A stretch of 64,000 nt of DNA from Streptomyces sp. NBC_00344 (lineage in GTDB: Bacteria; Actinomycetota; Actinomycetes; Streptomycetales; Streptomycetaceae), in assembly GCF_036088315.1 (NCBI RefSeq), contig NZ_CP107996.1, forward strand, positions 2,994,501 to 3,058,500, in the 5' to 3' direction. Below, piece by piece: positions 29,327 to 59,670 of the stretch. A program made the position numbers and the translations under genes. The notes beneath the pieces are model-generated. The model was not told the origin of the DNA. It saw nothing but the letters and a program-made list of their open reading frames with translations, and did no database searches. Position 1 is the stretch's first letter, and the number at the start of each line of letters is the position of its first letter.

Positions 29327-29393
29327 GCCCGCCGTCGACCGCCATGAGCGCCCCGAGCCCACTCCCTCCCACCCCACGCAAAGGCTGACCCCC

Positions 29394-37363: not shown

Positions 37364-38551
37364 TCAGGCGTGGTGGCCGTACCAGTCCACGACGGAACGG
37401 AGCAACCCCTGACAGCCGAGCGCCAGTTGTCGGTCCGGGGTGGACTCCAGCGGGGAGTGGCTGATGCCGCCGGTACTCGGGACGAACAGCATCGCCGTCG
37501 GCACGTGCGCGCTCAGCACGCTCGCGTCGTGGCCCGCGAAGCTCAGCAGTGAGCCACCGAAGACACCGCCGGTCTTGAGGCAGGCGTCCTGAAGGACCTT
37601 GACCGCCTCGCTGTCGAAGCCGGTGATCGCCTTGTGCGAGAGGAGCTCGACGCTCGCCGTGCAGTTCTCCTCGGCCGCTGCGGCATGCACGGCCCCGGTC
37701 AGCTCGTCGCAGGCGCGGCGCAGCGCGGACGCTCGTCCGGAGCGCCATTCGACGGTGAGCCGGGCCTGTCCGGGTACGACATTGGGGGCGCCCGGCAGGA
37801 ACTCGATGAATCCGACGTTGAAGACCATCGCCGGGTCGATCGCGGCGAGTTTCGGCGTCAGCCCCGCCAACAGCCGGGCGGCGGCTCTGCCCGCGTCGGC
37901 CCGATCGGCCATGGGCGTGGTGCCCGCATGGTTCGGCACGCCGAAGACGTTGATCTCATGCCGCTCGATGCCGACGATGCCCTCGACGACGGTCAGATCA
38001 GTACCGGCCGCCTCCATACGGGGGCCCTGCTCGATGTGGAGTTCGTAGAACGCGGCGATGTCGCGGAGCCCGTCGCCGGAGACGAACGCGGTGGAGCCGG
38101 TGAGCCCGCCGGCCGAGTCGGGCCGGGCGCCCTCCTCGTCCCAGAACCCGGCGATCCGCACCCGGTCGGCAGCCGGGTGGCCCGCCTCACGCAGGGTGCG
38201 AAGGGTCTCCAGGGCGGCGATGACTCCGTACGAGCCGTCGAGCCGGCCACCCGCGGGCACGCTGTCGGTGTGTGAGCCGAGCAGCAGCGCGGGACCGGTC
38301 CCGCCGGGAGAGCGGGCGAAGACGTTGCCGATCTCGTCGGTGTCCGTCAGCAGCCCGGCGTCCTCGATCCGGCGCATCAGCCAGGCCCGCGCCGCCACGT
38401 CCGCCGGGGACCCGGCGACCCGGTCGACCCCGCCGTCGGCCCGTCCCCCGAACGTCGCGAAGACGTCCAGGTCACGCAGCAGCCGTCCACGATTGATCCG
38501 CGGCACCGGGGCGTCGGGCAACACGCCCGCGGGATGCGAGGGGTGGGTCAC
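37364..38551 (-). CDS. M20-family amidohydrolase (allantoate / N-carbamoyl-amino-acid hydrolase type)
   Basis: A 395-aa two-metal hydrolase. Ligand motifs are in order: LLLGSHTDSVPAGGRLDGSY (His, Asp), FWDEEGARPDS (Glu-Glu), FYELHIEQGPRME (His) and TGGISHSPLES (His). The dimerisation domain contains NHAGTTPMADR. Relatives hydrolyse allantoate, ureidoglycolate, N-carbamoyl-L-amino acids or beta-ureidopropionate. Its ATG overlaps the MFS stop (ATGA), so it is the last gene of the NRPS operon. A role in precursor supply or in trimming or releasing an N-acyl product is possible (inference). Confidence 0.9.
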   Translation of the reverse strand: MTHPSHPAGVLPDAPVPRINRGRLLRDLDVFATFGGRADGGVDRVAGSPADVAARAWLMRRIEDAGLLTDTDEIGNVFARSPGGTGPALLLGSHTDSVPAGGRLDGSYGVIAALETLRTLREAGHPAADRVRIAGFWDEEGARPDSAGGLTGSTAFVSGDGLRDIAAFYELHIEQGPRMEAAGTDLTVVEGIVGIERHEINVFGVPNHAGTTPMADRADAGRAAARLLAGLTPKLAAIDPAMVFNVGFIEFLPGAPNVVPGQARLTVEWRSGRASALRRACDELTGAVHAAAAEENCTASVELLSHKAITGFDSEAVKVLQDACLKTGGVFGGSLLSFAGHDASVLSAHVPTAMLFVPSTGGISHSPLESTPDRQLALGCQGLLRSVVDWYGHHA

Positions 38552-39870
38552 GGTTGATCACCTCGGGTGTTGTCGTCGTTCTGTTTCAGGACGGAGGAGC
38601 CGGGTCCGGCGGGGAATGGATCCCGTTCCGCGCGGGCGGCCGGCAGGACCAGGACGAGGAGCGTGAGCAGCAGCATGACCGCGCCCATCCAGAGCCCGGT
38701 GGTGGCGATGCCCACCGCGCCGAGGAGGTAGCCGCCGGTGAGGGAGCCGAGGGAGTTGGCGCCGGAACCGAGGAAGCGGGCGGTGCCCTGGACGCGTCCC
38801 TGGAGTTCGTCGGGGGTGTTCCGGGTCTGGTAGACCCCGGCGGCGACGTTGAGCAGACCGCAGATGAAGGAGACGGCGGCCAGCAGCAGCGCCAGCGCGA
38901 CCGGCCCGCGGACATACGCGGTGAGCGGCACGAGCAGCGTCCACACGGCGCAACCCAGCAGCAGCGTGGCGCGCATGCTGCTGCGCCGGGCGACCGGCGT
39001 GGACAGCGCGCCGAGCAGCCCGCCGACGCCCCCGCACGCGGTGACGAGGGACACCGTGGACGGGGAGTGACCGCCGTTCTTGAGGACCACCATCACGGTG
39101 AGTACGAGGGCCTGGAAGACCAGGTTGGACCCGGCGATCAGGCCGACCAGGACGCGCGCGAACCTGGCCTGCCACAGTCGGCCGATGCCCTCCTTGATAT
39201 CGGCGAGCAGTGGCCGGGCCGGGCCCTGCGGGGCACCCTTCAGCTTCCCCTTGATCCGCAGGAAGCAGAGCGTCGCCACCGCGTCGGCGACGGCCGTGCA
39301 CGCGAAGGGCAGCGAACTCGAGAGGGTGAGCAGGAAGCCGCCGCTCGGCTGGCCCGCGAGTCCCATGGCCTGCCGTCGCGCCTCGTTCTGCGAGAGCGCG
39401 ACGGGCAGTTGGTCGCGCGTGACGACCGTGCGGACGGTGGCGCGCTCGGCCAGGTCGACGAAGATGCCGCGGCTGCCGTCGACGAAAGCGGCCAGCATCA
39501 GATGCGTGAGCCAGATGTGTCCTGACAGCACGGCCAGGGCCACGCTCGTCATGGCGAGCGTGCCGAGGACGTTGCACCACAGCATGATCCGGCGACGGTC
39601 CCAGCGGTCGACGAGCGCACCCGCCGGGAGCTGCACGGTCAGGTTGGGCAGGGCGGCAGCGAACCCGACCAGACCGGACTGGAAGGCTGATCCGGTGTGG
39701 TAAAGGATCAGCAGGGGGAAGGCGGTGAGGCCCACCCGTGAACCGAACTGCGAGACGCTCGCGCCCATCCACAGCCGCATGAAGTCGCGGTTTCTGCGCA
39801 GCGGAACGGGAGCGCCGGCATCCGCGGCCGCCGGCGGAGCGGCGGCCGCGGAGGGCGTGCGGCGCGTCAT
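38548..39870 (-). CDS. MFS efflux transporter
   Basis: A 440-aa membrane protein with about 12 hydrophobic segments. The opening RNRDFMRLWMGASVSQFGSR and the loop VDRWDRRRIMLWCNVLGTLA are typical of the MFS_3/EntS-like exporter group common in biosynthetic clusters. The start overlaps the NRPS-C stop and the stop overlaps the M20 start, so it is co-translated with both. It most likely exports the peptide product and gives self-resistance (inference). The C-terminus is short and cytoplasmic. Confidence 0.9.
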   Translation of the reverse strand: MTRRTPSAAAAPPAAADAGAPVPLRRNRDFMRLWMGASVSQFGSRVGLTAFPLLILYHTGSAFQSGLVGFAAALPNLTVQLPAGALVDRWDRRRIMLWCNVLGTLAMTSVALAVLSGHIWLTHLMLAAFVDGSRGIFVDLAERATVRTVVTRDQLPVALSQNEARRQAMGLAGQPSGGFLLTLSSSLPFACTAVADAVATLCFLRIKGKLKGAPQGPARPLLADIKEGIGRLWQARFARVLVGLIAGSNLVFQALVLTVMVVLKNGGHSPSTVSLVTACGGVGGLLGALSTPVARRSSMRATLLLGCAVWTLLVPLTAYVRGPVALALLLAAVSFICGLLNVAAGVYQTRNTPDELQGRVQGTARFLGSGANSLGSLTGGYLLGAVGIATTGLWMGAVMLLLTLLVLVLPAARAERDPFPAGPGSSVLKQNDDNTRGDQP

Positions 39871-42800
39871 GACCGGCGGGCGCCTTCCTGCCGCTGCTCG
39901 CGGGCCTCCGCCTCGCCCATCGCCCGCTGCCAGAAGCCCGCGAGTCGCCCGGAGTCGGTCCACCCGTTGGCCATCAGATGGGTGACCAGGGATCGGCCGT
40001 GCACGGAGTTCGTGAGGACGACGGTGCCGTCGCCGGCGTTCGCCCGGATCCCGAACATGGCCTGATAGCCGGTGGCCTGCCCGCCGTGTCCGAACTCGAG
40101 GTCGACACCGGTGTCGTCGATGATCGTGCCCCAGCCGTACGGACGGTCGGAGTGCGGCGTGAGCATCTGCTGCACCAAATTCTGTGACACCAAGGCCCCT
40201 TCACGTCCGATCGCGCTGTCGCGTACCGCAAGGACGAGCTTCGCCAGGTCCGCGGCCGTGGTCCACAGCCCGCGTGCCGCGGACTCGGGGTAGACCCGGC
40301 GCCCGCCGGGCAACGGGTCTCCCTTCAAGTCGTGGCCGTGCGCGACCGGCTTGCCGGAGGTCTCCGGGTGGTCCGGGGTCACACCGCTGTCACGCATACC
40401 GAGCGGTGCGAAGACCAGTCGCCGCACGACCTCGGGGAAGGTCTCCCCGGTGAGGTCCTCCATGGCCTGCTGAAGGATCAGGTAATGGACGTTGTTCAGC
40501 CGGAATCTGGCACCCGGCGCGAACTCCCGCCGCGCCGGCCCCCCCTCCGCCGGGGCGCGCCCGTGCAGGATGTCGAGGACGGTCGGCCAGGGCTCGTCGG
40601 TGTCGTAGCCGGAGCGCCGGGCCGGTGAGGGCTCGGCGAAGCCGGCCAGGTTGGAAACCAGGTGGCGGAGAGTCACAGGCCGACCGCCCGCCGGAACGCG
40701 CCAGTTCACGAGATGCCGGTTGACGTCGTCGTCGAGGTCCAGGCCCCGCTCGGCGATCAGTCGCAGCAGCGTGAAGGTCGTGAGGTGCTTGGTGATGGAC
40801 GCCGCCGCGAACAGCGTGTCAGGCGTCACCGGCTGCCGCCCCCGCGCGTCGAGGACGCCGTGGCTCTCCACGGACACCAGCTCACCGCCGCGGATCACGG
40901 CGACGGTCGCGCCGGGGATACCGTGCTCGGCCATCACCTCGGACACCCCCGATGCCGCGGGCTGCCTGACGGCCGGAGTGTTCGAGCCGCCCGGGGCGCC
41001 CCGGCCGCCGCCGGAGCCGCCGCCCGGTCCGTCGCTCCCGCCTCCAGTCCCACCGCCGGCACCGCCGTCGTCGTCACCGTCACCCACGAGCTCGGTCAGC
41101 TCGGCCAGGTGCTCATCGGCGAGCCGCCGTACCGTCACCGGGTCGTGGACGTCGCCGCGGTGGGTCCAGCGGACATACAACTGACCGCCGGACACGATCG
41201 CTTCGACGTCCAGCAGACGGCCGGTGTCGTCGCTGACGCCGCCCGCGGCGTGCGCGAGGAACGTCTCCCCGGCTTGCCGGTCCGGTACGTGGGTGAGGGC
41301 GAACCCGACCTCGGGGTGCGGCTGGGAGCGCAGCTCGGCCGCCGCGTCCGGGTCGGCGACGCCGTCCCGGAGCAGCCCGTAGCCGTAGCGGGGCATGGGC
41401 AGCGCGGTGAGCTGCCGGGCCACCGAGCGCAGCAGCTGCGGCAGTTCACGTCCGCGCGGCAGCCAGAGGCCGACCGGCACGCTGTCGGTGAGCGGACCCA
41501 CCGTGCGGGCGAGCGCGGTGTCGTCCTGGCGCGGGTCGTGGCGCAGGGCGATGTCGAGCCGGTCACTGCCGGCCCAGCGGCCGAGCACCCGGCCGAGCGC
41601 GGCCAGTACGGCCGCCTCGGGGTCCTGCCCGGCCAGCAGAGCGGCAGTCGGGCCGCCCGGGAGCATGGTGGTCACCGTGTGGGCGGTGGCGGTACGGGCC
41701 TCGGCGCGGTCGCGCGGCAGGGCTGCGCCCGGCCTGCGGTTCAGCCAGGCGGAGGCCTGGTCGAGAACCTCCGGCGACACGGCCTCGGCGGCGAGCCGAC
41801 GAGCCCACTGCCGCAACGGCGTTGCGACGGTCGGCAGTTCGACCGTTTTGCCGGACACCAGCCGCTCGTACGCGATGTTGAGGTCTTCGGTGAGGACGGT
41901 CAGCGATGCCTCGTCGGCCGCCGTGCCGTGAACCACGATCCACAGCTCGGCCAGCACCTCGGTGTCGAGAAGCCGGTCCTCACCCACATCGAACAGGACC
42001 GCCTGCACGACAGGCCCGGCCACCGGGTCGAGGCGGCGACGCGCATCGGCCACGGCCGCGGTGAGGGCGGCGGACCGCTCATCGGCCGCGACATGGGCGA
42101 GCGAGACGGCATCGAGCAGCGACGCAGACTCGTCCGGGGCGACCGTGCCGCCCCGGCGCCCGGGGTGGAGGTCCAGCCGCAGCCGCAGCGCATCGTGATG
42201 CGCTACGACCGCCGCCAGCGCCTGGGCCAACAGGTCGGCGTCAGGGCGTCGGCCCAGCGTGAGCCGCAGCGTACGGTCGGCGGGTGCCTCGTCGTCGGTC
42301 CTGAGCTGGACGGGGAGCAGCTGCAGCAGCTCGGCGTCGTCCGTCCCGGCCTCCGTCTGACCCGCGGCCGCGGTCCCCGCGGAACCGCCCACGCCGGCCC
42401 CCGGCTCCTCCACCGCAGGCCCCTCGGTCCGGTCCGCGAGTGCCGCCATCTCGGCAAGCGAACCCGCCTGGTAGATCATCCAGACCGCGAGCGGCACCCC
42501 GGCCTCGCGGGCCGCGGCGAGCATCCGTACGGCCAGGATGGAGTGGCCGCCGAGGTCGAAGAAGTTGTCGTCGGCGCCGATGGTGCCGAGGCCGAGCACA
42601 TCGGCCCAGACCGCGGCGAGCCGCTTCTCGGTCGGGGTGCGCGGCGCGGTGTGCTCGGTGCGTGAAGTCGCGCCCCGGTCGGGCTCGGGCAGCGCCCGGC
42701 GGTCGAGCTTGCCGTTACTGGTGAGCGGGATCTGCTCGAGGACGGTGTACGACGCCGGGACCATGTACTCGGGCAGCCGCCCGGCGAGGTGCTCCCGCAG

Positions 42801-45800
42801 TGCGGCCGTGTCCACGGTCGCCCTGGTGGTGTCCGCGGTTGCCGCGGTGCTGTCCGTGGCAACGAGGTACGCGGCCAGGGAGGCGTCGCCGTCGTCGTTG
42901 CGGTGCAGGACCACGACGGCCTCCCGGACGGCCGGATGATTCTCCAACACGTGCTGGATTTCGCCGAGTTCGACGCGATAGCCGCGGATCTTCACCTGGT
43001 CGTCGATCCGGCCGAGGAACTCCAACGCCCCGTCCGTGCGGAACCGCCCCAGGTCGCCGGTGCGGTAGAGCCGGGACCCGTTCTCACCGTACGGGTCGGG
43101 CACGAACCGCTCGGCGGTCAGAGCCGCCCGGCCGAGGTATCCGCGGGCCAGGCCCACGCCGCCGATGAACACCTCGCCGGGGACCCCGACGGGCACCGGC
43201 TCCAGCCACGCGTTCAGCACATGGGTGGAGGTGTTGGGCAGCGCGTGGCCCAGGGGCGCGGTGCCGGACTGCTTTTCGTCCACCGGGTGAACGGTCGCGC
43301 CGATGGACGTCTCGGTCGGGCCGTACTCGTTGATGAGCCGTCCGGCGCCGAGCGCGGCGACGTAATGGTTGGCGGTGCGGGGCTGGAGGGCCTCGCCCGC
43401 GACCAGGATGCGCCGGGCCAGCTTCGGCAGTTCGTCGGAGCCGAGCTGGTGCGTGAGCAGATCCAGGTGGCCGGGCGTCAGCTTGATGAAGCCGTACGGT
43501 CCGGCCTGCACCAGCTCGCGGCCCAGGTCGCCGGGGGCCGTGGAGGCGGGCAGCACGGTGACCGGTCGGCCCGTCATCAGCGGCACGTAGAGGTTGGTGG
43601 CGGGCAGGTCGAATGCGATGGAGGAGAACAGCGGGGCGCCGCCCTCGTCCGCGGTCAGGTCCCGGGCCGCCCACCGCAGATGGTTGGCCAGGCCGCGCTG
43701 GGTCACCATGACGCCCTTGGGGAGGCCGGTGGACCCGGACGTGTAGATGACGTATGCCAGGTGGTCGGGGTCGCTCGTACGGGCCGGCCGGGCCGCGGAC
43801 TCGGCGGCGATGGCGTCCTGGGCCAGGTCGAGATCGAGGCGGACGGTGTCGTGGCCCCCGGCCGCACCCGCGAGCGTGGACTGGGCGACCAGGACACGGA
43901 CGCCGCTGTCGGCGAGCATGTGGGCGAGCCGGTCCGCCGGGTTTGCGGGGTCGAGCGGCAGATAGGCGGCGCCCGCCTTCCACACGCCGAGCAGCGCGGG
44001 GACCAGATCGGGCCCTCGGTCCAGGTGGACGCCGACGAGGGTGTCGGCGCCGACACCGAGCGCGATGAGCCGGTGAGCAATGCGGTTGGCCCGCTCGTCC
44101 AGCTCGCGGAAGGTCAGGCGCCGGTCGCCGCTGATGACTGCGGGCGCGTCCGGGGTCCGTTCGGCGGCCTCCTCGATCACGTCGACGACCGAGCCGGCCG
44201 GCCAGTCGACGCCTGTGTCGTTCCACTCGGTCAGTAGTCGCGTGCGCTCCGGCTCGGGGAGGAACGAGGCGGTCGCGTCACCGTCCGGATTCTCCGCGAT
44301 GGCCTCGAAGACCTGCCGGTACATGGCCGCCATGCGCTCGGCGTTCGCCCGGCTGATGTTCTGCGAGCGGGAGCCGAGGACGAGGTGGCCGTGGATTGCG
44401 AAGACGCTCATCGCGAACTCGTTGCCGCCGACACCGAACCCTCCGGCCATGTCCACGGACTCGTCGACCTGGTGGAAGTCCAGGAAGTTGAACGTCACGG
44501 AGACCAGCCGGTCACCGCTGCCGACGAGCCGCTGGATCGCGGGCAGTGGATACCGCCGGTGCCCCCAGGTCCGGGTCTCCCGCGCGAACGTACGCGCCAC
44601 CAGCTCACGCCACGTACGCGCCGAACGGTCCGCCGGGAACGGGACGCTGTTGAGGTGCATGCCGAGTACCCGGTCGCCGCCCGACGCCTCCAGACGGGCG
44701 TGGGTGACCAGGCCGGCGTGGAAGAACGGCTCAGGCGTGAGGCTGCTCAGGACCTTCAGGTGGGCGGCCAGGACGACCGTCTTGAGGGAAGCACCGCACT
44801 CGTTGGCCAGCTTCCGCAGCGGCTCCTCCAGGTCGTGGAAGGGCACGCGGACGTGGAATACCTCGTCGGGCCCGTCCTGGCCCCAGCCGTCCGGCAGCGC
44901 GAAGGGGGTGTGCCGGCTGACGACGTCCTGCCAGTACGTCTGGTGCTTGCCGTCTTCCAGCGCCTCCAACTCGGCGGCTACGACATCGGCGTACCGCACG
45001 GCCGGCAGGTCGTAAGGGGGCACCGGTTCGCCGTCGCGGATGTGCCGGTAGACCTCGAGGAGCTGCATGAGCAGCGTGTGGTAGCTCCAGCCGTCGGTGA
45101 TGGCGTGGCACTGCGTGAAGGTGATCCGCCAGGCCCGGTCGGACTCCAGGTGGACGTTCACGCGCATCAGTGGTGCCGCCGCCAGATCGAACGGCCTGCC
45201 CCGCTCGTCCGCGATGAAGTCGAGCCCGGCCTGCTGCTGTTGCTGCTCGTCGAGGCCGCGCAGGTCGTGCAGCGCGAGCGGGATCTCCGCGCGGGCGTGC
45301 ACGAGCTGGAGGGGCTGCGCGTAGTCCGTCAGCGCGATGGACGTTCGCAGGATCTCGTGCCGTGCGACGACCGTGTCGAGAGCCTTGCGCAGGGCCGGGA
45401 ACGAGAAGGGGCGCTCGTCGGGGATACGGAAGCCGGTCACCGAGTGGTAGGCGTTCCGCTCGGTGTGGTTGAGCATCTCGACGATCATGCCGGTCTGCAC
45501 CTGCGACAGCGGATACGCGTCGAGGACGTCGTCGGGCAGCGCGGCCCGGTCCGCAGCGGTGATCAGCTCGTACGGCGCGGTGGTGCGCGTCAGGTCCCGG
45601 CCTGTGTCCTGCCCGGCGAGCCCCTCCGCGAGGCGGGCCACCGTGCCGGCCTCGAAGATCTCGCGGATGCCGACGTCGAACCCGGCCTCGCGCAACACGC
45701 CCGCCATGCGCACGGCACGCATCGAGTCCCCGCCGAGGTCGAAGAAGCGGTCGTGGACGCCGATGTCGTCGATGCCGAGGATGCCGGCCCAGACGCCGGC

Positions 45801-48800
45801 GAGCTGCCGCTCCAGCGGGGTGCGCGGCGCGGTGTGCTCGGTGTGTGCGAACGCGTCGCGGTCCGGGGCGGGCAGCGCCCTGCGGTCGAGCTTGCCGTTG
45901 CTGGTGAGCGGGATGCGGTCGAGGACCGTGAAGGACGCGGGGACCATGTACTCGGGCAGCCGCTCGTCCAGGTGGGCACGGAGTGCGGCCGTGTCGACCT
46001 CGGGTCCGTCCGTGCCGACGACGTACGCGGCGAGCGCGCCGTCGCCGCCGGTGCCGTGCAGCACGACGACGGTCTCCTGAACGGCCGGGTGCTGACCGAG
46101 GACGTGCTGGATCTCGCCAAGTTCGACGCGGTAACCGCGGATCTTCACCTGGTGGTCGATCCGGCCGAGGAACTCCAGCGCCCCGTCGGCGCGGAACTGC
46201 GCGAGGTCGCCGGTGCGGTAGAGCCGGGAGCCGCTCTCGCCGTACGGGTCGGGCACGAAGCGTTCGGCGGAGAGGCCGGGCCTGCCGAGGTAGCCGCGGG
46301 CCAGGACGATCCCGCCGATGTACACCTCGCCGGGCACCCCGACCGGCACCGGCTCCATCCACCGGTCCAAGACGTACATGGAGCTGTTCGGCACCGGCGT
46401 GCCCAGGGGCATGAGGTCCAGCTCGGGGATCTCGGGCAGCGGGGTGCCGGAGTTGCCGACGGATGCCTCGGTGGGGCCGTACTCGGCGGCCAGCGGAGTG
46501 CCCTGAGATCCGGCGAGTTCGCGCCAGCGGAGCGCGAGGCGGGAGCTGAAGCTGTCGCCGGCGCCGATCACCAGACCGGCGAGCGAGGCCGCCTGCTCGC
46601 CGGTCAACTGGTGGGTGAGCAGATCGATATGGCCAGGCGTGAGCTTGATGAACGAGAATGGTCCGGCCGCGGCGAGTTCCCGGCCGAGCTCATCGGACGG
46701 CATGTCCTGCGGCAACAGATGCACGGTCTGACCGAGCAGCAGCGGCGCGAACAGGTCGGGCAGGCCCAGGTCGAAGGAGATCGACGAGAAGACGGGGGCG
46801 CCGCCGGTGCCGTGTGCCCCGTACGCCTCGGAGGTCCACAGCAGGTAGTTGGCGACACCGATGTGCGGTACCAGGACGCCCTTGGGTGAGCCGGTCGAGC
46901 CCGACGTGTACATAACGTACGCGAGGCTGTCCCCGTCGCAGAGTGGGGCGGGCCGGGTGTCCGGCTGCGCCTCTACGGCGGCGCGGTCGGCCTCGCGGTC
47001 GAGGACCAGGAGGGTGCCGTCGTGGACATCCGCCAGCTCGGTGGCGTACGGGCCGCTGGTGACGACGAGGCGGGCGCCTGTGTCGTCGAGCATGTAGCGC
47101 AGCCGCGCCCCGTGCACGGACGGGTCGAGTGGCAGGTAGCCGGCGCCGGACTTCCAGACGCCGAGCAGCGTGGGCACCAGGTCGACGCCACGGTCGAGGC
47201 GGACGCCGACGAGGGTTTCGGGGCCCGCGCCGAGAGCGCGCAGCCGGTGGGCGATGCGGTTGGCCCGTTGGTCGAGCTCGGCGTAGGTGAGCTTGCCGTC
47301 GCGGTGGCTGACGGCGACCGCGTCCGGGGTCGCCGTGGCCTGCTCCTCGATGAGCCGGTACACCGGCAGTTCGGGCGCGGTGCCCGGCGTGGCGCCCAGC
47401 TCGACGAGGAGCCGGTGGCGTTCCGTCGCGGGCAGGAAGGCGACGGTGGCGTCGCCGTCGGGACCGCCGGCCATCGCGACGAGGACCTGCCGGTACATGT
47501 CGACGAGGCGCTCGGCGTTGTCGGGGCTGATCAGGTCGGTGTGGCTGGACAGGTTGACGTATCCGCCGCTGGCGACGACGGTCAGGTCGAACTCGTTGGC
47601 GGCGCCGCCCGCGCTGGCCTTGCTGTCGACGGAGTCCGAGTCGACCTGGTGGAAGTCCAGGTACTCGAAGACGACGGACAGCAGCCGGTCGCCGGTGCCG
47701 GCCGGGCTCGCGCCGCGCTGGATCGCCGGCAGCGGGTAGCGGCGGTGCCCCCAGGTCTCGGTCTCCCGCGCGAAGGTACGCGTGACCAGCTCGCGCCAGG
47801 TGCGCGCCGAGCCGTCGGCCGGGAACGGCACGCTGTTGAGGTGCATGCCCAGCACACGATCGGCACCGGGCGCCTCGAGACGGCTGTGGGTGACCAGACC
47901 TGTGTGGAAGGACGGTTCGGCCGTCAGGGAGCTCAGCACCTTCAAGTGGGCCGCGAGAAGCACCGACTTGAGCGATGCACCGCAGCCGACGGCGAGGCGC
48001 CGCAGCCGCTCCTCCAGGTCGTGGAAGGAGACCTGCAGCCGGTAGGGCTCGCCCTTGGTGCCGGGTTGACCCCATGCGGCAGGCAGCGTGAACGGCGCGT
48101 GGTCGGAGGTGGTGCGCTGCCAGAACTCCAGGTCCTCGGCACTGTCCAGCGCCTCGAGCTCGGCGGCGACGTAGTCCGCATACCGCACCGACGGGGCATC
48201 GTACGCAGGCAATGGCTCGCCGTCCCGTATGAACCGGTAGGTCTTCAGCAGCTCCATCAGCAGGGAGTTGAGGCTCCAGCCGTCGGTGATGGCGTGGCAC
48301 TGGGTGAACGTGATCCGCCACGCCTCATCCGACTCCACGTGCACGGTGACCCGCAGCAGCGGCGCATCCGCCAGGTCGAACGGCCTGCCGCGCTCCTCGT
48401 CGATGAAGTCGAGCCCGGCCTTGCGCAGCCTCTCCTCGTCGAGGCCACGCAGGTCGTGCAGCGCGAGCGGGATCTCCGCGTGGGCGTGCACCAGCTGGAG
48501 AGGCTGGGAGAACTCGGTCAGCGCGACCGACGTCCTCAGGATCTCGTGCCGCCCTGCGACGATGTCGAGCGCGCCGCGCAGCGCGCCCGGGGAGAACGGG
48601 CGCTCATCGGGGATCCGGAAGTTGGACACCGAATGGTAGGCGTTCCGCTCGGCATGGTTGAGCATCTCGACGATCATGCCGGTCTGCACCTGCGACAGCG
48701 GATACGCGTCGAGGACGCCCTCCGGGAGCCGGTCGCGGTCCTCGGCGCCGATCAGTTCGTACGCGGCGACGGTGCGGACGAGGGTGGCGTCCGGCTCCTG

Positions 48801-50759
48801 CCCGGCGAGCGACTCTGCGAGCCCGGCGACCGTGCCGGCTTCGAAGATGGAGCGGATGCTGACGTCGAACCCGGCCTCGCGCAGCGCGCCCGCGAGCCGC
48901 ACGGCACGCATGGAGTCCCCGCCGAGGTCGAAGAAGTTGTCCTCGACGCCGACGGTGTCGCGGCCCAGCGTGGTCGCCCACACGGCGGCGACGCGCTCCT
49001 CCAGCGGCGTGCGCGGCGCGACGTGCGCGGCGCCCTTCTTCGGACGGGTGGCCCGGGGACGGTCGACGATCTCCAGGGTGCCGTCGGCGAGGTAACGGGC
49101 GCGCAGGCCGTCGACGCAGGTGACCGGCCCCAGGTAGACGTCTCCGGGCACGCCTGTCGGGGCGAGGTCGCCGCGGCCGTCGAGCACCCGGACCGTCAGA
49201 CGCTCCGGCAGGGCGCCGGTGAACGTGTCGAGGACGGCGCGGATGTCGTCGGCTGCACGGGCTGCGTCGTTCCAGACGGCGAGCCGCTCGCGCTCAGCCG
49301 CGGGCAGCAGGTCGACGGCCGTGACCAGGGTCTCCGGGTCGGCGGTGACCGCGTCGAGCAGCCGTGCGAAGTGGGCGGCCATGCGCTCGACGGTCGCGCC
49401 GTCGTAGAGCGAGGTGGAGTACGAAAGCCGGGCCCGGAGAGGGCCCGTCGCCGCCTGCTCCACGTTCAGGGTGAGGTCGAACCGGGCGACCCGGTCGTCC
49501 ATCAGCGACGTGGTGTCAAGACCCGGCAGGTCGAAGGCGGCATCCCGGCTCTCGTGCAGCACGAACGCGGTCTGGAACAGCGGCGTACGCGACAGGTCGC
49601 GCGCGGGCTCCAGCTCGTCGACCACCTGCGCGAACGGCACCGCCTGGTGATCGAAGGCGTCGAGGACGGTGTCGCGTACGTGGGCCAGCAGCCCGGTGAA
49701 CGTGGGGTCGCCGTCCCAGCGGGCGCGCGCGACGAGCGTGTTGATGCCGTAGCCGAAAAGCCGCTGCAGCTCAGGCCTGGCGCGGCCGGACACGACGATG
49801 CCGACGGGGATGTCGGTGCGGTCGGCGTGCCGGGACAGCAGCCCCTGGAACGCGGCCAGGAGCACGGTGAAGAGCGTGGTGTCGTGCGTGCGGGCGAGCT
49901 CCTGGGCCCGGTCCGCGACCTCGGCGGGGATGTCGAAGGCGACGGAGTCACCGGACCAGGCGCGCACGGCGGGCCGTGGCCGGTCGGTGGGCAGCTCCAG
50001 CGGCTTCAGCTCCGCGAGCCGGTCACGCCAGTGGCCGAGCTCCTTCTCCAGCGTGCCGCCGCTCATCTCCTTCCGCTGCCAGGTGGCGAAGTCGGCGTAC
50101 TGGACGGAGAGTTCGGGCAGCTCTTCGACGGGCCCGACAGTGGCGGACCGGTAGAGCGTGCTCAGTTCATCGGCGAACACGCCGACCGACCAGGCATCGC
50201 AGGCGATGTGGTGGAAAGTAACGGTGAGCAGGTGCTCGTCGTCGGCGAGCCGGAACAACCGGGCCCGGGCGGGCCATTCACGGCCGAGGTCGACGGGTCG
50301 CGCGATCTCCTCGTCGACGAGCCCGCGCAGCCGCCGCACCCGCTCGTCACCGTCGAAGGCGCCGAGGTCGGTGACGGGCAGCCCGGCGGCACACGGCGCG
50401 TCGATCACCTGCCGTGCCCCGGCCTCGGTGCCGGGGGCGAGCTCGTAGCGGGTACGGAGGATCTCGTGCCGGGCGAGCAGCCGCTCCCACGCGTCGACGA
50501 GCGCGTCCGTGTCAAGGGTGCCGCGCAGCCGCAGCACCACGGGCACCAGGTATTCGCCGCTGTCCGGGGCGAGTTGGCTGAGAAACCACATCTGCTGCTG
50601 CCCGAAGGACAGCGGGAGCGGTCCGTTGCGGTCAACGGGTCGAATGGCCGACCTGCGGTTGCCGCGCTGGCCGGCGAGCCGGCGGCGCAGCAGTTCGTCA
50701 CGCAGCGAGTCGGTCTCCTGTCGGCCGTCCCGGCCTGTGTGCGTGCTGTCGACGCTCAT
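39867..50759 (-). CDS. NRPS-C: C-(A lost)-PCP-C-A-PCP-C-A-PCP-degenerate E-beta-lactamase/PBP-fold domain
   Basis: A 3630-aa multimodular synthetase, third and last of the line. Approximate positions: C1 40-480 (HHIACDAWS); only a vestige of an A domain at about 500-575; PCP1 Ser near 615; C2 670-1110 (CHAITDG); A2 1140-1640; PCP2 Ser near 1674; C3 1735-2170 (CHAITDG); A3 2200-2700; PCP3 Ser near 2736. An epimerase-like domain at 2800-3225 has HGTAADE in place of HHxxxDG. After a Gly/Asp-rich linker, a class C beta-lactamase-type domain fills 3270-3630 (SITK near 3321, HGG near 3558, but LNN where YxN is expected). By-eye codes: A2 DLPKIAEVGK (unassigned), A3 DLTKLAEIGK (Asn-like). It starts inside the NRPS-B stop codon. 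Confidence 0.93.
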   Translation of the reverse strand: MSVDSTHTGRDGRQETDSLRDELLRRRLAGQRGNRRSAIRPVDRNGPLPLSFGQQQMWFLSQLAPDSGEYLVPVVLRLRGTLDTDALVDAWERLLARHEILRTRYELAPGTEAGARQVIDAPCAAGLPVTDLGAFDGDERVRRLRGLVDEEIARPVDLGREWPARARLFRLADDEHLLTVTFHHIACDAWSVGVFADELSTLYRSATVGPVEELPELSVQYADFATWQRKEMSGGTLEKELGHWRDRLAELKPLELPTDRPRPAVRAWSGDSVAFDIPAEVADRAQELARTHDTTLFTVLLAAFQGLLSRHADRTDIPVGIVVSGRARPELQRLFGYGINTLVARARWDGDPTFTGLLAHVRDTVLDAFDHQAVPFAQVVDELEPARDLSRTPLFQTAFVLHESRDAAFDLPGLDTTSLMDDRVARFDLTLNVEQAATGPLRARLSYSTSLYDGATVERMAAHFARLLDAVTADPETLVTAVDLLPAAERERLAVWNDAARAADDIRAVLDTFTGALPERLTVRVLDGRGDLAPTGVPGDVYLGPVTCVDGLRARYLADGTLEIVDRPRATRPKKGAAHVAPRTPLEERVAAVWATTLGRDTVGVEDNFFDLGGDSMRAVRLAGALREAGFDVSIRSIFEAGTVAGLAESLAGQEPDATLVRTVAAYELIGAEDRDRLPEGVLDAYPLSQVQTGMIVEMLNHAERNAYHSVSNFRIPDERPFSPGALRGALDIVAGRHEILRTSVALTEFSQPLQLVHAHAEIPLALHDLRGLDEERLRKAGLDFIDEERGRPFDLADAPLLRVTVHVESDEAWRITFTQCHAITDGWSLNSLLMELLKTYRFIRDGEPLPAYDAPSVRYADYVAAELEALDSAEDLEFWQRTTSDHAPFTLPAAWGQPGTKGEPYRLQVSFHDLEERLRRLAVGCGASLKSVLLAAHLKVLSSLTAEPSFHTGLVTHSRLEAPGADRVLGMHLNSVPFPADGSARTWRELVTRTFARETETWGHRRYPLPAIQRGASPAGTGDRLLSVVFEYLDFHQVDSDSVDSKASAGGAANEFDLTVVASGGYVNLSSHTDLISPDNAERLVDMYRQVLVAMAGGPDGDATVAFLPATERHRLLVELGATPGTAPELPVYRLIEEQATATPDAVAVSHRDGKLTYAELDQRANRIAHRLRALGAGPETLVGVRLDRGVDLVPTLLGVWKSGAGYLPLDPSVHGARLRYMLDDTGARLVVTSGPYATELADVHDGTLLVLDREADRAAVEAQPDTRPAPLCDGDSLAYVMYTSGSTGSPKGVLVPHIGVANYLLWTSEAYGAHGTGGAPVFSSISFDLGLPDLFAPLLLGQTVHLLPQDMPSDELGRELAAAGPFSFIKLTPGHIDLLTHQLTGEQAASLAGLVIGAGDSFSSRLALRWRELAGSQGTPLAAEYGPTEASVGNSGTPLPEIPELDLMPLGTPVPNSSMYVLDRWMEPVPVGVPGEVYIGGIVLARGYLGRPGLSAERFVPDPYGESGSRLYRTGDLAQFRADGALEFLGRIDHQVKIRGYRVELGEIQHVLGQHPAVQETVVVLHGTGGDGALAAYVVGTDGPEVDTAALRAHLDERLPEYMVPASFTVLDRIPLTSNGKLDRRALPAPDRDAFAHTEHTAPRTPLERQLAGVWAGILGIDDIGVHDRFFDLGGDSMRAVRMAGVLREAGFDVGIREIFEAGTVARLAEGLAGQDTGRDLTRTTAPYELITAADRAALPDDVLDAYPLSQVQTGMIVEMLNHTERNAYHSVTGFRIPDERPFSFPALRKALDTVVARHEILRTSIALTDYAQPLQLVHARAEIPLALHDLRGLDEQQQQQAGLDFIADERGRPFDLAAAPLMRVNVHLESDRAWRITFTQCHAITDGWSYHTLLMQLLEVYRHIRDGEPVPPYDLPAVRYADVVAAELEALEDGKHQTYWQDVVSRHTPFALPDGWGQDGPDEVFHVRVPFHDLEEPLRKLANECGASLKTVVLAAHLKVLSSLTPEPFFHAGLVTHARLEASGGDRVLGMHLNSVPFPADRSARTWRELVARTFARETRTWGHRRYPLPAIQRLVGSGDRLVSVTFNFLDFHQVDESVDMAGGFGVGGNEFAMSVFAIHGHLVLGSRSQNISRANAERMAAMYRQVFEAIAENPDGDATASFLPEPERTRLLTEWNDTGVDWPAGSVVDVIEEAAERTPDAPAVISGDRRLTFRELDERANRIAHRLIALGVGADTLVGVHLDRGPDLVPALLGVWKAGAAYLPLDPANPADRLAHMLADSGVRVLVAQSTLAGAAGGHDTVRLDLDLAQDAIAAESAARPARTSDPDHLAYVIYTSGSTGLPKGVMVTQRGLANHLRWAARDLTADEGGAPLFSSIAFDLPATNLYVPLMTGRPVTVLPASTAPGDLGRELVQAGPYGFIKLTPGHLDLLTHQLGSDELPKLARRILVAGEALQPRTANHYVAALGAGRLINEYGPTETSIGATVHPVDEKQSGTAPLGHALPNTSTHVLNAWLEPVPVGVPGEVFIGGVGLARGYLGRAALTAERFVPDPYGENGSRLYRTGDLGRFRTDGALEFLGRIDDQVKIRGYRVELGEIQHVLENHPAVREAVVVLHRNDDGDASLAAYLVATDSTAATADTTRATVDTAALREHLAGRLPEYMVPASYTVLEQIPLTSNGKLDRRALPEPDRGATSRTEHTAPRTPTEKRLAAVWADVLGLGTIGADDNFFDLGGHSILAVRMLAAAREAGVPLAVWMIYQAGSLAEMAALADRTEGPAVEEPGAGVGGSAGTAAAGQTEAGTDDAELLQLLPVQLRTDDEAPADRTLRLTLGRRPDADLLAQALAAVVAHHDALRLRLDLHPGRRGGTVAPDESASLLDAVSLAHVAADERSAALTAAVADARRRLDPVAGPVVQAVLFDVGEDRLLDTEVLAELWIVVHGTAADEASLTVLTEDLNIAYERLVSGKTVELPTVATPLRQWARRLAAEAVSPEVLDQASAWLNRRPGAALPRDRAEARTATAHTVTTMLPGGPTAALLAGQDPEAAVLAALGRVLGRWAGSDRLDIALRHDPRQDDTALARTVGPLTDSVPVGLWLPRGRELPQLLRSVARQLTALPMPRYGYGLLRDGVADPDAAAELRSQPHPEVGFALTHVPDRQAGETFLAHAAGGVSDDTGRLLDVEAIVSGGQLYVRWTHRGDVHDPVTVRRLADEHLAELTELVGDGDDDGGAGGGTGGGSDGPGGGSGGGRGAPGGSNTPAVRQPAASGVSEVMAEHGIPGATVAVIRGGELVSVESHGVLDARGRQPVTPDTLFAAASITKHLTTFTLLRLIAERGLDLDDDVNRHLVNWRVPAGGRPVTLRHLVSNLAGFAEPSPARRSGYDTDEPWPTVLDILHGRAPAEGGPARREFAPGARFRLNNVHYLILQQAMEDLTGETFPEVVRRLVFAPLGMRDSGVTPDHPETSGKPVAHGHDLKGDPLPGGRRVYPESAARGLWTTAADLAKLVLAVRDSAIGREGALVSQNLVQQMLTPHSDRPYGWGTIIDDTGVDLEFGHGGQATGYQAMFGIRANAGDGTVVLTNSVHGRSLVTHLMANGWTDSGRLAGFWQRAMGEAEAREQRQEGARRS
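45466..45528. repeat. Copy 1 of an identical segment shared by two NRPS-C modules
   Basis: A 63-bp stretch in the second C-A-PCP module is identical to 48655-48717. The offset, 3189 bp, equals one module length. Flanking sequence on both sides is also very similar, so this marks a duplicated or gene-converted module. Confidence 0.8.
48655..48717. repeat. Copy 2 of an identical segment shared by two NRPS-C modules
   Basis: Identical to 45466-45528. It lies at the start of the first of the two similar condensation domains (the DAYPLSQVQTGMIVEML region). Confidence 0.8.
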
Positions 50760-53700
50760 GCCTTGTACTCCCTCGCCGCTGTGCAGCCGTCGTCGAATGG
50801 GGGCCCGGTGCGGGTGTCGGTGTCCGGGCCCGGTACGGCCCGGTCCGCGGCGAGAACCGCCGCGGCGAGACCGCTGATCGTCAGTCGTTCGAAGAGCGCG
50901 GACACGGGCAGGTCGATCGCGAACTCGCGGCGGATCCGCATGAGCATCCGGACGACCGACAGGGACCGTGCGCCGTGCTGCGACACGTTGTCGTCGGGGC
51001 CGAGACCGCGCAGCCCGAGCACCTCGGCGCAGAGCGCGGCCACGCGGGCCTCCGTGGGATTGCTGGGGCGACGGGCCGCCCCCTGTTCGGCGCCCGGCGC
51101 CGGGAGGGCACCGAGGTCGACCTTGCCGCTGACGCTCAGCGGCACCCGCGGGATGGCCACGAACGCGGCCGGGATCATGTATCCGGGCAGCTTGGCCGCG
51201 AGGTGGCGGCGCAGCGCCGACACGTCGGTCCGGCCCGCGGCGACCACATAGGCGATGAGCCGTTTGGTGCCGGGGCTCGATTCGCGGACCACGATCACTG
51301 CGTCCCGGATCGCCGGATGCTCGGTCAACACCGCGCGGACCTCGCCGAGTTCAATGCGGTGGCCGCTGATCTTCACCTGGGTGTCGATCCGGCCCAGGAA
51401 CTCGACGGTGCCGTCGGCGTACCGACGCGCCAGGTCGCCAGTGCGGTACAGGCGGGCGCCGGGGGTGCCGTGCGGGTCGGGCACGAAGCGGTCGGCGGTG
51501 AGTGCCGGGCGACCGTGATAGCCGCGGGCAAGCCCGGAACCACCGATGCACAGCTCTCCCGCGACGCCCGGCACAACCGGCTCCAGCGCCTGGTCCAGCA
51601 CATGGAGGGACTCACCGTTCAGCGGCTGCCCGAGCGCCATGCCTGCCGTTGCTCCGGCCTGTGCCTGAGCCGTCACCTGCGGACCCACCTGCCAGGAGGC
51701 GGACCAGATGGCCGTCTCCGTCGGCCCGTAGACATTGGTGAGGGCCTTGACCCTGGAGCGCAACTCCCCGGCGAGCCGGGCGGGCAATTCCTCGCCCCCG
51801 GCGAGCGCGGTGACGGTGGGCCGGTCGAACCCGACGGCCAGCAGCAGCCGCCAGCCGGACGGGGTGGCCTGCACATGCGTCACCCGGTGCTCGTCGACGA
51901 GCCGCAGCAGCGCCGCAGGGTCCTTGGCCTGCGTGTCGTCCGCGAGAACCACGCGGCCGCCGGTGATCAACGGCAGGTACAGCTCCAGCCCGGAGATGTC
52001 GAAGGACACGGAGGTCGCGGCGAGCCAGTCACCCGTGTACTCCGGCTCGGCGAAGGAGTGCAGCAGCTGCGCGAGCGCACCGTGCGGAAGCATGACGCCC
52101 TTGGGGGTGCCCGTGGAACCGGAGGTGAAGATGACGTACGCGAGGTCGTCGGGGCCGTGGTGGGCGGCGGGCGCGTCGGAGGGTTGCCGTTCGACGGCAC
52201 CGAGTTCGGCGGTGGAGTCGAGGACGACGGCCCTCTCCGCGTACACGGCCGGGATACGCGACGTGAGCGCCGACTCGGTGAGGATGAGCGGCGCGTCGGT
52301 GACCGAGAGGATGTGGGCGAGCCGCTCGTCGGGCACGCTCGGGTCGAGCGGAACATAGGCGGCACCTGAGCGGAGAACACCGAGCAGCGCGGGGAGCAGC
52401 GCGGGCCCGCGATTCAGGAGTACGCCGACCAAGTCGCCCCGTCCGGCGCCGAGTCCGCGGAGTCGGTGGGCGATGCGGTTGGCGTGGGCGCCGAGGGTGC
52501 GGTAGTCGAGGGTGGTCTCCCCCGCAATGACCGCCACAGCGTCCGGGCTCTCGGCGGCCCGGACCGCGATCAGCTCCGGAACGAGCGGCTCACAGTGGCC
52601 GGCCCGGTGGGGGCCGCCCGCGGCGAGCACGTTCCGGGCGAGTGGGCCGGGCATCCGGCTCATGGCGGCATCCCCGTCCGGGTCATCGGCCATCGCGACG
52701 AGCACCTCCCGGTAGATCCCGGCCAGCAGCTCCGCGTGCGTTTCGTCGAGGGCGTCGTACGCCGCGTCCAGCACGAGCGCGTCCTTGAAGACCCGGACGA
52801 CGAGCGGGAACTCCGTGCCGTCGTGGTCGGGGCCGGCAGCGGGATCCGGATCGAAGAGGACGTCGGCAAGCCGGCCGGGGGTACGGGCCGCGCGGCGGAC
52901 GGCGGCCCACGGGTAGTGGCGGTACGGCTCGGTGTCCGACGCTCGGCGCTCGGTGGCGGCGACGAGCTCTCGCCAGGTGCCCGTTGCTTGGCGGTGGGGA
53001 AAGGGGACCGTGTTGCGGTACGAGCCGAGGGCGAGAGGGGCGAGCGCCACGGCGCCGGAACGGTTCGGGATTCCGGTGGTGGTGAACGCCGTGTCCGAGA
53101 GGACGGGGAGGCCGGCGGCGCTTGCCGTCCCCGTGCCGGACTGCTCCGGACGTCCGTCGTTCCGGACCGCGGTGTGGAAGGCCGCGTCCGGCGTCAGCGA
53201 CCCCAGTGCCCGCAGGTGCGCCGCGAGCAGGACCGCGCCCAGTGGCGTGCCGGCCCGGTCGCCGAGGGTGCGCAGCTCCTCCGACAGATCACCGAACGGA
53301 ACCCGCACGGTGTGCCGTCGCCCACGGTGGTCCGGCGTGCCCCAGCCCTCGGGCAGAAGCAGCGGCGCACAGGTGTCCGCGACGCGGCGCCAGTGGGCGC
53401 GCGGGGCCGGGTCGTCGAGGGCGGCGCGCTCGGCGGCCACGTACGCGGCGTACGGCACAGCGGGCGCGACGCCCCCGCTCCCGAACGCCTCCTTCTCGTA
53501 CGCCTCTTTCTCGTACACCGCCGCCAGCTCGCCCAACAGTCGTTCGGCACTGCCCGCGTCGAGCAGGGCCGGGCTGTAGGTGAGGACAAGGCGCAGCGCC
53601 GTGTCGGTCTCGAGCTGGGCGGCGAGCCGCAGCGGGGGAGCTGTCGGCAGCGGGACCTCGCGCTCGACGACCTCGTGCGCACCGAAGACAGCGGCGCGGC

Positions 53701-54085
53701 GCGGCTCGTCGAGGGCACGCAGGTCGTGCACGGACAGTGGGATCTCCGCTTCGGCGTGGACGAGTTGCAGCGGCACGCGATGGCGTTCGACGGCGAACGA
53801 GGTGCGCAGCGTGTCGTGCGCCGCCGTCAGTGCATGGAGGGCGCGCCGCAGGTCATGCAGCGCGAACGGGCGGCCGAGCACCTGGCGCCGCACCGCGATC
53901 AGGTTGCCGGTCGCGGGGGCCGGGGCGGTCAGGACGCGGGCCAGCGCGTCGGCCTGTGCCTCGGCGAGCGGGTAGGCGTCGACGAGTCCGTTGGGCAGGC
54001 CGCGCCGGTCGGCGCGGGAGAGCTGCGCGAAGCGGTCCACGGGCGGCGCGGCCGTGGCCGACGATCCGGTGAGGGCGATGCTCAT
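50756..54085 (-). CDS. NRPS-B: degenerate C - A (Gly) - PCP
   Basis: A 1109-aa single module. The C domain (about residues 15-470) belongs to the same group as C2 and C3 of NRPS-C (VDAYPLAEAQADALARVL), but its active-site motif reads SPALLDAG near residue 173, so both His of HHxxxDG are gone. The A domain (about 495-1000) is intact: FTSGSTGTPKGVM near 655, NVYGPTETAIWS, RYADGTVEFLGR and a Lys near SVSGKVDLGAL. By-eye code DILQLGVIWK differs at one position from the known Gly code. The carrier site reads HGARSLSV near 1040, with the phosphopantetheine Ser kept. ATGA overlaps link it to NRPS-A and NRPS-C. Confidence 0.92.
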   Translation of the reverse strand: MSIALTGSSATAAPPVDRFAQLSRADRRGLPNGLVDAYPLAEAQADALARVLTAPAPATGNLIAVRRQVLGRPFALHDLRRALHALTAAHDTLRTSFAVERHRVPLQLVHAEAEIPLSVHDLRALDEPRRAAVFGAHEVVEREVPLPTAPPLRLAAQLETDTALRLVLTYSPALLDAGSAERLLGELAAVYEKEAYEKEAFGSGGVAPAVPYAAYVAAERAALDDPAPRAHWRRVADTCAPLLLPEGWGTPDHRGRRHTVRVPFGDLSEELRTLGDRAGTPLGAVLLAAHLRALGSLTPDAAFHTAVRNDGRPEQSGTGTASAAGLPVLSDTAFTTTGIPNRSGAVALAPLALGSYRNTVPFPHRQATGTWRELVAATERRASDTEPYRHYPWAAVRRAARTPGRLADVLFDPDPAAGPDHDGTEFPLVVRVFKDALVLDAAYDALDETHAELLAGIYREVLVAMADDPDGDAAMSRMPGPLARNVLAAGGPHRAGHCEPLVPELIAVRAAESPDAVAVIAGETTLDYRTLGAHANRIAHRLRGLGAGRGDLVGVLLNRGPALLPALLGVLRSGAAYVPLDPSVPDERLAHILSVTDAPLILTESALTSRIPAVYAERAVVLDSTAELGAVERQPSDAPAAHHGPDDLAYVIFTSGSTGTPKGVMLPHGALAQLLHSFAEPEYTGDWLAATSVSFDISGLELYLPLITGGRVVLADDTQAKDPAALLRLVDEHRVTHVQATPSGWRLLLAVGFDRPTVTALAGGEELPARLAGELRSRVKALTNVYGPTETAIWSASWQVGPQVTAQAQAGATAGMALGQPLNGESLHVLDQALEPVVPGVAGELCIGGSGLARGYHGRPALTADRFVPDPHGTPGARLYRTGDLARRYADGTVEFLGRIDTQVKISGHRIELGEVRAVLTEHPAIRDAVIVVRESSPGTKRLIAYVVAAGRTDVSALRRHLAAKLPGYMIPAAFVAIPRVPLSVSGKVDLGALPAPGAEQGAARRPSNPTEARVAALCAEVLGLRGLGPDDNVSQHGARSLSVVRMLMRIRREFAIDLPVSALFERLTISGLAAAVLAADRAVPGPDTDTRTGPPFDDGCTAAREYKA

Positions 54086-58839: not shown

Positions 58840-59670
58840 ATGACCGCCATGACCCAAGCGGACAGCGTCTGGTTCCACCGGAGCGGCGGCTCTTCCCGGC
58901 CCGCCCTGCGGCTCGTGTGCTTTCCGCACGCGGGCGGCACCCCGGCCTTCTTCCACCCCTGGCACCGCCGGCTTCCGGCGGGCGTCGAGGTGCTCGCCGT
59001 CTGCTACCCGGCGCGGCAGCACCGGCTGCTCGACGCGCCGGTGGACACCATGGACGTCCTGGCCGACCAAGTGACGGACGCGCTGGTGCCGTACGCCGAG
59101 GACGACGTACCGCTGGCCTTCTTCGGACACAGCATGGGCGCGGGCGTCGCCTACGAGGTGGCCCACCGCCTGGAGACCCGGCACCGCCTCGGCCCGGTGC
59201 GCCTGTTCGCGTCCGCGTTCCGCGCCCCGCACCGGCGCCGGCCGCTGGCGCAGCCGACGGACGACGCGGCGATGCTGGCGGAGCTGCGGCTGCTCGGCAG
59301 CTCCGCGATGGCCGCACTGGACGACCCGGCGCTGGCCGAGGTGGTGATGCCGTCGCTCCGCGCCGACCTGCGCCTGGTGTGCGCGTACTGGCGGCCGCGG
59401 CCCGAACCGTTGAGCTGCCCGCTCGTCGGCTACGCGGGCGCCCAGGACAAGGAGGAGTCGGGCCCTGAGGCGATGAGGTCCTGGGCCGATCTGACCACGT
59501 CCCGTTTCGAACGCCGCCTCTTTCCCGGCCACCACTTCTATCCGGAACACTGCGAGGCGGAGTTGCTGGCAGACATGTCCGGGCACCTCACCGACGATCT
59601 GCGACTGCTGAGTGCGCGGGCCGCGGCCCGGCCCCCGGCATCCGCGCCGGGAGGCGGCGCCCATGCGTGA
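58840..59670 (+). CDS. Type II thioesterase
   Basis: A 276-aa alpha/beta hydrolase of the NRPS editing group. It opens LRLVCFPHAGGTPAFFHPWH, has the nucleophile elbow FFGHSMGAGVAYE with Ser98, and a C-terminal FPGHHFYPEH with the catalytic His. It removes wrong or stalled acyl groups from the carrier proteins of the neighbouring NRPS. Start ATG 58840 (ATG 58849 also possible; neither has a clear ribosome site). It overlaps the next gene by 8 bp. Confidence 0.92.
   Translation: MTAMTQADSVWFHRSGGSSRPALRLVCFPHAGGTPAFFHPWHRRLPAGVEVLAVCYPARQHRLLDAPVDTMDVLADQVTDALVPYAEDDVPLAFFGHSMGAGVAYEVAHRLETRHRLGPVRLFASAFRAPHRRRPLAQPTDDAAMLAELRLLGSSAMAALDDPALAEVVMPSLRADLRLVCAYWRPRPEPLSCPLVGYAGAQDKEESGPEAMRSWADLTTSRFERRLFPGHHFYPEHCEAELLADMSGHLTDDLRLLSARAAARPPASAPGGGAHA

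Follow-up and report, generated by a model that had tools for sequence, protein, structure and literature searches.

A serine-beta-lactamase-fold domain at the end of a Streptomyces nonribosomal peptide synthetase: a candidate in-cis release domain from a family separate from SurE

How does a nonribosomal peptide synthetase (NRPS) release its product when its last protein ends not in a thioesterase (TE) domain but in a domain with the fold of a beta-lactamase? The question is raised by a stretch of 64,000 nucleotides from Streptomyces sp. NBC_00344 (contig NZ_CP107996.1, positions 2,994,501 to 3,058,500), which as a whole is called the window here. Its minus strand encodes NRPS-C (39867..50759), whose terminal domain belongs to the S12 fold and follows a domain of epimerization (E) type. 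According to Pfam, an alpha/beta-hydrolase TE (PF00975) is absent from NRPS-A, NRPS-B and NRPS-C, the three synthetases of the cluster. A first-pass annotation of the range 39867-42340, which spans nearly all of the E-type and the beta-lactamase-fold domain, had brought the terminal domain into relation with the SurE group of penicillin-binding-protein-type (PBP-type) TEs. From sequence comparisons we lean towards a different view, namely that the domain, an acyltransferase of S12 fold, off-loads the chain in cis and comes from a family separate from SurE, in which the need for a D-residue at the end of the chain would have been lost.

NRPS-C comprises 3630 amino acids (aa), and its reading frame is uninterrupted through all 3630 codons. 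With C, A and T for condensation, adenylation and carrier domains, the order is C-T, C-A-T, C-A-T, E-type domain, linker and beta-lactamase-fold domain, and Pfam finds four Condensation, two AMP-binding, three PP-binding and one Beta-lactamase (PF00144) stretch. The first module is thus a C-T module in which the expected A domain is missing; aa 494-587 (48999..49280, minus strand, as are all features of NRPS-C) lie between its C domain (aa 48-493) and its T domain (aa 588-649). The last carrier domain has the motif FFDLGGHS with Ser2740 and extends, with approximate borders, over aa 2700-2773 (42441..42662). It is followed by the E-type domain (about aa 2794-3226; 41082..42380), a linker rich in Gly and Asp (aa 3227-3262; 40974..41081) and the serine-beta-lactamase-fold domain (aa 3263-3630; 39867..40973, stop codon included). 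The third-position G+C is 0.89 in both the E-type and the beta-lactamase-fold domain, 0.90-0.99 in the other domains and 0.81 in the linker. A structure model of the last two domains, with nine sequences behind it, has a mean predicted local distance difference test score (pLDDT) of 71.3, and the linker lies below 50.

Is the E-type domain still an epimerase? In E domains the HHxxxD motif and a Glu are catalytic. In NRPS-C the sequence HGTAADE (aa 2944-2950; 41910..41930) replaces HHxxxDG, with Gly2945 at the second His, and Arg3073 (41541..41543) stands at the Glu of the ExHGR stretch, a Glu which is present in the nine E domains that we judged intact (see below). The ancestry of the domain is nevertheless visible. 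A phmmer search matches it to the E domains of PvdL, TycB, TycA and GrsA (best E 1.4e-28), and a domain tree, into which 29 of 33 domains were entered, puts it with the E domains and groups it with dead E domains from two Actinomadura (Shimodaira-Hasegawa-like approximate likelihood ratio test, SH-aLRT, 87). The fold comparison agrees with an E-type identity, but does not tell E from C domains. Model TIGR01720 gives 28.2 bits (E 1.5e-6), well below its cut-off of 74.2; this cut-off is also missed by locus L079 (67.4 bits), although its E domain was judged intact. Deviations at 20 of 65 columns are by themselves no proof of decay, since the leave-one-out control L067 differs at 24 of 89; it is the position of the changes which counts. 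No chain named X domain was found among the 11 sequences listed by the sequence search or the 50 rows of the fold comparison, an absence which is no exclusion. We conclude from the alignments that the domain descends from E domains and keeps the E/C fold, and that both catalytic positions are lost.

The terminal domain matches PF00144 over aa 3272-3588 (167.3 bits, cut-off 27; E 6.6e-49 for the whole protein) and is confidently modelled as a complete S12 fold (pLDDT 92.5). Both SxxK and HxG of the S12 fold are present. SITK (aa 3321-3324; 40788..40799) contains the putative nucleophile Ser3321 and Lys3324, which are both invariant in the 48 rows of alignment A2, and HGG (aa 3558-3560; 40080..40088) is the third S12 motif, whose His and last Gly are invariant in A2 as well. 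At the YxN motif the domain has LNN (aa 3421-3423; 40491..40499). Here Leu3421 takes the place of the Tyr (Tyr154 of SurE by alignment), and the motif Asn is preserved as Asn3423. Arg3496 (40272..40274) aligns with Gly235 of SurE in the pocket for the C-terminal residue and is the sole Arg at this position among the 65 rows of the family described below. After the PF00144 match only 42 aa are left (3588 of 3630) and the model terminates in a helix; a lipocalin-like domain is missing. In the conserved columns the NRPS-C row has 4 changes at 46 positions, compared with 5, 4, 4 and 3 in L072, L034, L075 and L049.

The NCBIfam model for class C beta-lactamases (NF033085), a comparison which the first-pass annotation had proposed, reaches 49.9 bits against a cut-off of 415, and many genomes contain a fusion of this kind. 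A class C resistance gene joined to the synthetase by chance is thereby ruled out. Much else of that annotation is borne out: Pfam and the motif positions confirm the order of carrier, epimerase-like domain, Gly/Asp linker and beta-lactamase-fold domain, the fold with its SITK and HGG agrees with the PF00144 score and the model, the fusion in cis is a single frame, the epimerase, described as dead-looking, has lost its catalytic residues, and the alignment places Leu at the family Tyr.

The arrangement of NRPS-C is no one-off. Within the genus, 19 of 295 genomes including its own carry the domain, with 22 matches (E <= 1e-30), and a class-wide draw gave 7 of 394 genomes, again including its own (E <= 1e-60). 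A scan of named genomes yielded 56 loci from Streptomyces, Plantactinospora, Micromonospora, Phytohabitans, Longispora, Actinomadura, Actinoallomurus, Saccharothrix and Nonomuraea; the 56 include one stand-alone protein in a Solibacteraceae metagenome-assembled genome (L091) and several distant stand-alone proteins. Matches below 60 bits or shorter than about 250 aa were dropped, L051, L108, L110 and L114 were excluded as repeats of loci already included, and the removal of near-copies (about 97% identity) left 73 out of 81 domains. Setting aside L091 and seven distant stand-alone rows, we define the family as the remaining 65 non-redundant NRPS-type rows including NRPS-C. Seven rows found later, among them L145, were not added to these counts.

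A carrier-domain motif precedes the terminal domain within one open frame in 62 of the 65 rows; contig ends truncate the remaining three. An E-type domain stands between carrier and terminal domain in 12 rows, nine of them judged intact and three dead (NRPS-C, L063 and L095). In the other 50 readable rows 52-240 aa separate the carrier motif from the domain, which is too short for an E domain. We assigned the label "intact" ourselves by inspecting the HHxxxD stretch; in L111 and L112 it reads NHxxxD and still has the second His. At some loci a second stand-alone PF00144-like gene directly follows the NRPS with the fused domain, as at L036:8121-9173 (minus strand) and similarly at L037, L070, L073 and L082 (Pfam for L036 only).

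How is this family related to SurE? With SurE as query we assembled a SurE-type set of 20 loci (22 of 150 genomes had a match at E <= 1e-45) plus SurE itself, so the SurE side of the trees samples SurE and its homologues only. In a quick tree of 102 rows the family together with L091 forms one clade and the 21 SurE-type rows form another (SH-aLRT 100 each). A careful tree of 65 rows, 46 from the family and 15 of SurE type, omits 37 rows of the quick tree for speed, 19 of them family rows, and again separates the two clades (ultrafast bootstrap, UFBoot/SH-aLRT, 100/99 each). SurE membership is ruled out by the separate clade, the missing lipocalin-like domain and the missing Tyr. Family members that lack the Tyr of YxN group together in a single clade (97 in the quick tree, 100/98 in the careful tree). 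The position of NRPS-C within this Tyr-less clade is unsure; its end branch of 0.83 is flagged as long in the quick tree (median 0.13) and unflagged in the careful tree (median 0.23). The stand-alone protein of the Solibacteraceae genome SbA4 (L091:113-1282, plus strand), which falls inside the family clade, keeps the Tyr and by eye has a signal-peptide-like start. Possibly it hints at the origin of the terminal domain.

The Tyr position is occupied by Lys in 51 of the 65 rows and by Tyr in 8; Leu (NRPS-C), Asn, Pro, Arg, Ser and Val occur once each. The Tyr is therefore missing in 57 rows. Among the nine rows whose E domain we judged intact, eight retain both the Tyr and the Gly matching Gly235 of SurE. 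This Gly is kept in only 8 of the 57 Tyr-less rows, most of which have Ala or Ser there. As a tree rooted by other S12 rows leaves the rows with intact E and Tyr outside the Tyr-less clade, the presence of both is likely the ancestral state. The eight rows also fit the earlier suggestion that an epimerase before the domain once supplied a D-residue. Gly235 of SurE forms part of the wall of the pocket in which the C-terminal D-residue sits; G235A loses activity with D-Leu and G235L accepts Gly (PMC11735501). By alignment of these distant homologues the pocket of NRPS-C should refuse a bulky D-residue.

From the observed architecture, residue changes, clade structure and predicted fold we infer the catalysis, the substrate, the order of events and the part played by the dead E domain as follows. 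Ser3321, with Lys3324 as base, would take over the completed chain as a peptidyl ester from the last carrier. Attack by water or an internal amine would then give an acid or a ring, and the dead E domain might act as spacer or docking platform. The ancestral order was probably carrier, active E domain and an S12 domain that had the Tyr of YxN and whose pocket, with its Gly, was open to the D-residue. In the derived clade another residue, mostly Lys, would have taken the place of the Tyr; most members would also have exchanged the pocket Gly, and the epimerase would have been inactivated or deleted. Because of these three losses the enzymes of the derived clade would release L- or Gly-ended chains.

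The surroundings of the family point to a further aspect. In 33 of the 65 rows a transcarbamylase-like gene lies on the same strand at most 1.4 kilobases (kb) downstream (blastp E <= 1e-20); a few loci are too short on this side to be judged. The one tested, L030:7458-8375 (minus strand), reaches 243 bits against a cut-off of 281 for ornithine carbamoyltransferase, so its acceptor may differ from ornithine. In Plantactinospora mayteni a single frame (L052:7865-12079, plus strand) contains AMP-binding, carrier, Beta-lactamase, OTCace_N and OTCace domains according to Pfam, and P. endophytica (L054) apparently has the same fusion, judged by length and blast. To this transcarbamylase-like gene the genome of the window has only matches of 32% and 40% identity, the second partial and both outside the window. 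Instead, the cluster in the window continues with an MFS exporter frame (38548..39963, minus strand), which overlaps the end of NRPS-C, and then, two genes downstream of NRPS-C, with an M20 hydrolase of the hydantoinase/carbamoylase family (37364..38551, minus strand; TIGR01879 262.3 bits, cut-off 204). Of the 64 relatives, 36 likewise have an MFS gene of this kind no more than about 1.3 kb behind the NRPS. The contrast between a transcarbamylase in relatives and a hydantoinase/carbamoylase-family gene in the window is a hint at possible carbamoyl chemistry. A more far-reaching proposal, which we regard as doubtful, would be a second recruitment of the beta-lactamase fold for NRPS release, with the dead E domain as platform and the transcarbamylase pairing of about half of the family serving a carbamoyl-dependent finishing of the peptide. 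Since the catalytic Tyr was given up, chains would then no longer need a D-end.

The rest of the cluster shows several irregularities. NRPS-A (54082..58632, minus strand; A-like/T/C-A-T) begins with an A-like domain which is fragmentary by our reading, and NRPS-B (50756..54085, minus strand; C-A-T) has SPALLDAG and not HHxxxDG in its C domain. A search of the other 391 genomes of the genus gave no homologue of the NRPS-B N-terminus at E 1e-60 (three candidates scored per genome listed). Beside the NRPS operon the plus strand encodes a stand-alone alpha/beta-hydrolase thioesterase (PF00975; 58840..59670), a lone C domain (59612..61057) and an AMP-binding protein which resembles fatty-acyl-AMP ligases and stays below the models' cut-offs (61097..62908). 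The last two possibly point to a lipid starter. Another stand-alone thioesterase of this type lies at 29121-30101 (plus strand). The earlier statement that no standard thioesterase is present thus holds for the three synthetases, but not for the window, which contains at least two stand-alone ones. The A-domain codes were read with our own motif script; the Gly-like and Asn-like labels are not used to claim a product.

Several points weigh against an active in-cis release domain. The Tyr belongs to the SurE tetrad Ser-Lys-Tyr-His in one account, which also regards Gly or a D-residue at the C-terminus as a prerequisite (PMC7459860), and Lys or Leu may be unable to stand in for the Tyr; another account gives Ser, His, Asn and Lys as the catalytic residues of SurE-type enzymes, with Tyr not among them (PMC11735501). 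Leu3421 and Arg3496 are each unique among the 65 rows. Two loci depart from a strict link between E domain and Tyr: in L067 an E domain judged intact goes with Lys at the Tyr and Thr at the Gly235 position, and L145 (genome G460), a fusion of carrier and beta-lactamase-fold domain without E domain, has the Tyr and the Gly. Moreover, the loss of the Tyr is one event in the tree, which gives just one independent pair on supported branches and two on all branches, too few to treat the association of the E state with the Tyr or with the Gly235 position as correlated evolution. Release could instead be the work of the stand-alone thioesterase at 58840-59670, and other domains of the cluster are broken or missing. 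It is conceivable that both terminal domains are relics in this strain and that the chain leaves by a stand-alone thioesterase, by spontaneous attack or never. Such a terminus would fit the two lost catalytic positions of the E domain, the two unique residues, the end branch that is long by the quick tree though not by the careful one, the A-less first module of NRPS-C, the defects of NRPS-A and NRPS-B and the NRPS-B N-terminus for which the genus search found no homologue. This is the main rival to our reading, and we consider it unlikely: the frame is open over its whole length with a third-position G+C of 0.89 in both domains, the changes in conserved columns are no more numerous than in several other rows, the loss of the Tyr is the rule of the family, and the long branch may merely reflect unsampled close relatives.

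The domain could also be a tailoring hydrolase or acyltransferase which acts at a side group while the chain is still bound to its carrier, together with a carbamoyl-handling partner, so that another enzyme performs the release. The transcarbamylase-like neighbours, in-frame in Plantactinospora mayteni, the hydantoinase/carbamoylase-family gene of the window and the stand-alone thioesterase genes near many relatives speak for this. However, the last module ends with this domain, just where release domains are found, 32 of the 65 rows have no adjoining transcarbamylase-like gene (a few of these loci end within about 1.5 kb) and no characterised member was found, and we therefore rate a tailoring role as improbable. 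A fused but true PBP-type cyclase, still joining head to tail at a D-residue, is very hard to reconcile with the separate clade, the absent lipocalin-like domain, the lost Tyr and the Arg at the Gly235 position. In addition, no D-residue is to be expected from the E domain of NRPS-C, since it is dead by its motifs.

If the favoured release function applies and the domain is active, the family would represent recurring built-in release domains whose S12 active site works without the Tyr, and it would offer candidates for fused release or cyclisation without the requirement for a D-end. It holds natural stages, namely active E with Tyr, dead E and no E, so how a release domain sheds the need for a D-residue becomes testable. 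A terminal PF00144 domain, often together with a transcarbamylase, would further be a handle for mining genomes for uncharacterised clusters.

Which known systems come closest? The E domains of TycA, TycB3, GrsA and PvdL (E2) match the E-type domain in sequence and fold; in NRPS-C both catalytic positions are replaced. X domains of glycopeptide synthetases precede the TE and recruit partners. The E-type domain resembles them in idea only, as a catalytically dead C-type domain retained in an NRPS (PMC8949500); unlike them it groups with E domains and has no known partner. The words lactamase and penicillin-binding are absent from this review of unusual NRPSs, and in searches of open PMC papers we recognised no description of an in-cis family other than SurE or of a fused transcarbamylase.

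The terminal domain was also compared with other S12 enzymes, namely Pab87 (2qmi), the IS11 esterase (7spn), LACTB, EstB, the R61 DD-peptidase, ClbP and AmpC. These enzymes use the Tyr of YxN, and we know of no NRPS fusion among them. The PBP-type TEs SurE, PenA, Ulm16, FlkO and WolJ share the S12 fold, SxxK, HxG and the expected chain release with NRPS-C. As described, they are stand-alone proteins that act in trans and carry a C-terminal lipocalin-like domain (PMC11735501), whereas the NRPS-C domain is fused, lacks this domain and the Tyr, has Arg at the Gly235 position and has a separate phylogeny.

The closest parallel is BifB of biffamycin A, published in 2026, also from Streptomyces and with an S12-fold domain fused to the C-terminus of its last module ('C2-A3-PCP3-E3-C3-A4-PCP4-SurE'); deletion of its SurE domain abolishes the product, and the authors call the in-cis SurE domain a unique observation (PMC13285481). 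Among our loci, L139:185-15183 (plus strand, genome G057) has frames of the order A-T-C-A-T and C-A-T-E-C-A-T-SurE and then, by eye, an MFS-like frame. As these orders match BifC and BifB, this locus and L135 probably represent a BifB homologue in a biffamycin-like cluster, judged by architecture alone. Their terminal domain falls into the SurE clade in both trees and keeps YSD, in contrast to the Tyr-less NRPS-C domain, which follows a dead E domain in the other clade. Provided that L139 is a BifB homologue, the published in-cis case thus belongs to another clade than NRPS-C. The earlier suggestion of a new in-cis domain needs a qualifier because of BifB: the family is apart from SurE, but the in-cis use of the fold is already published. 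What distinguishes the NRPS-C domain, by alignment and tree, is its separate clade and the loss, across the family, of a residue regarded as catalytic.

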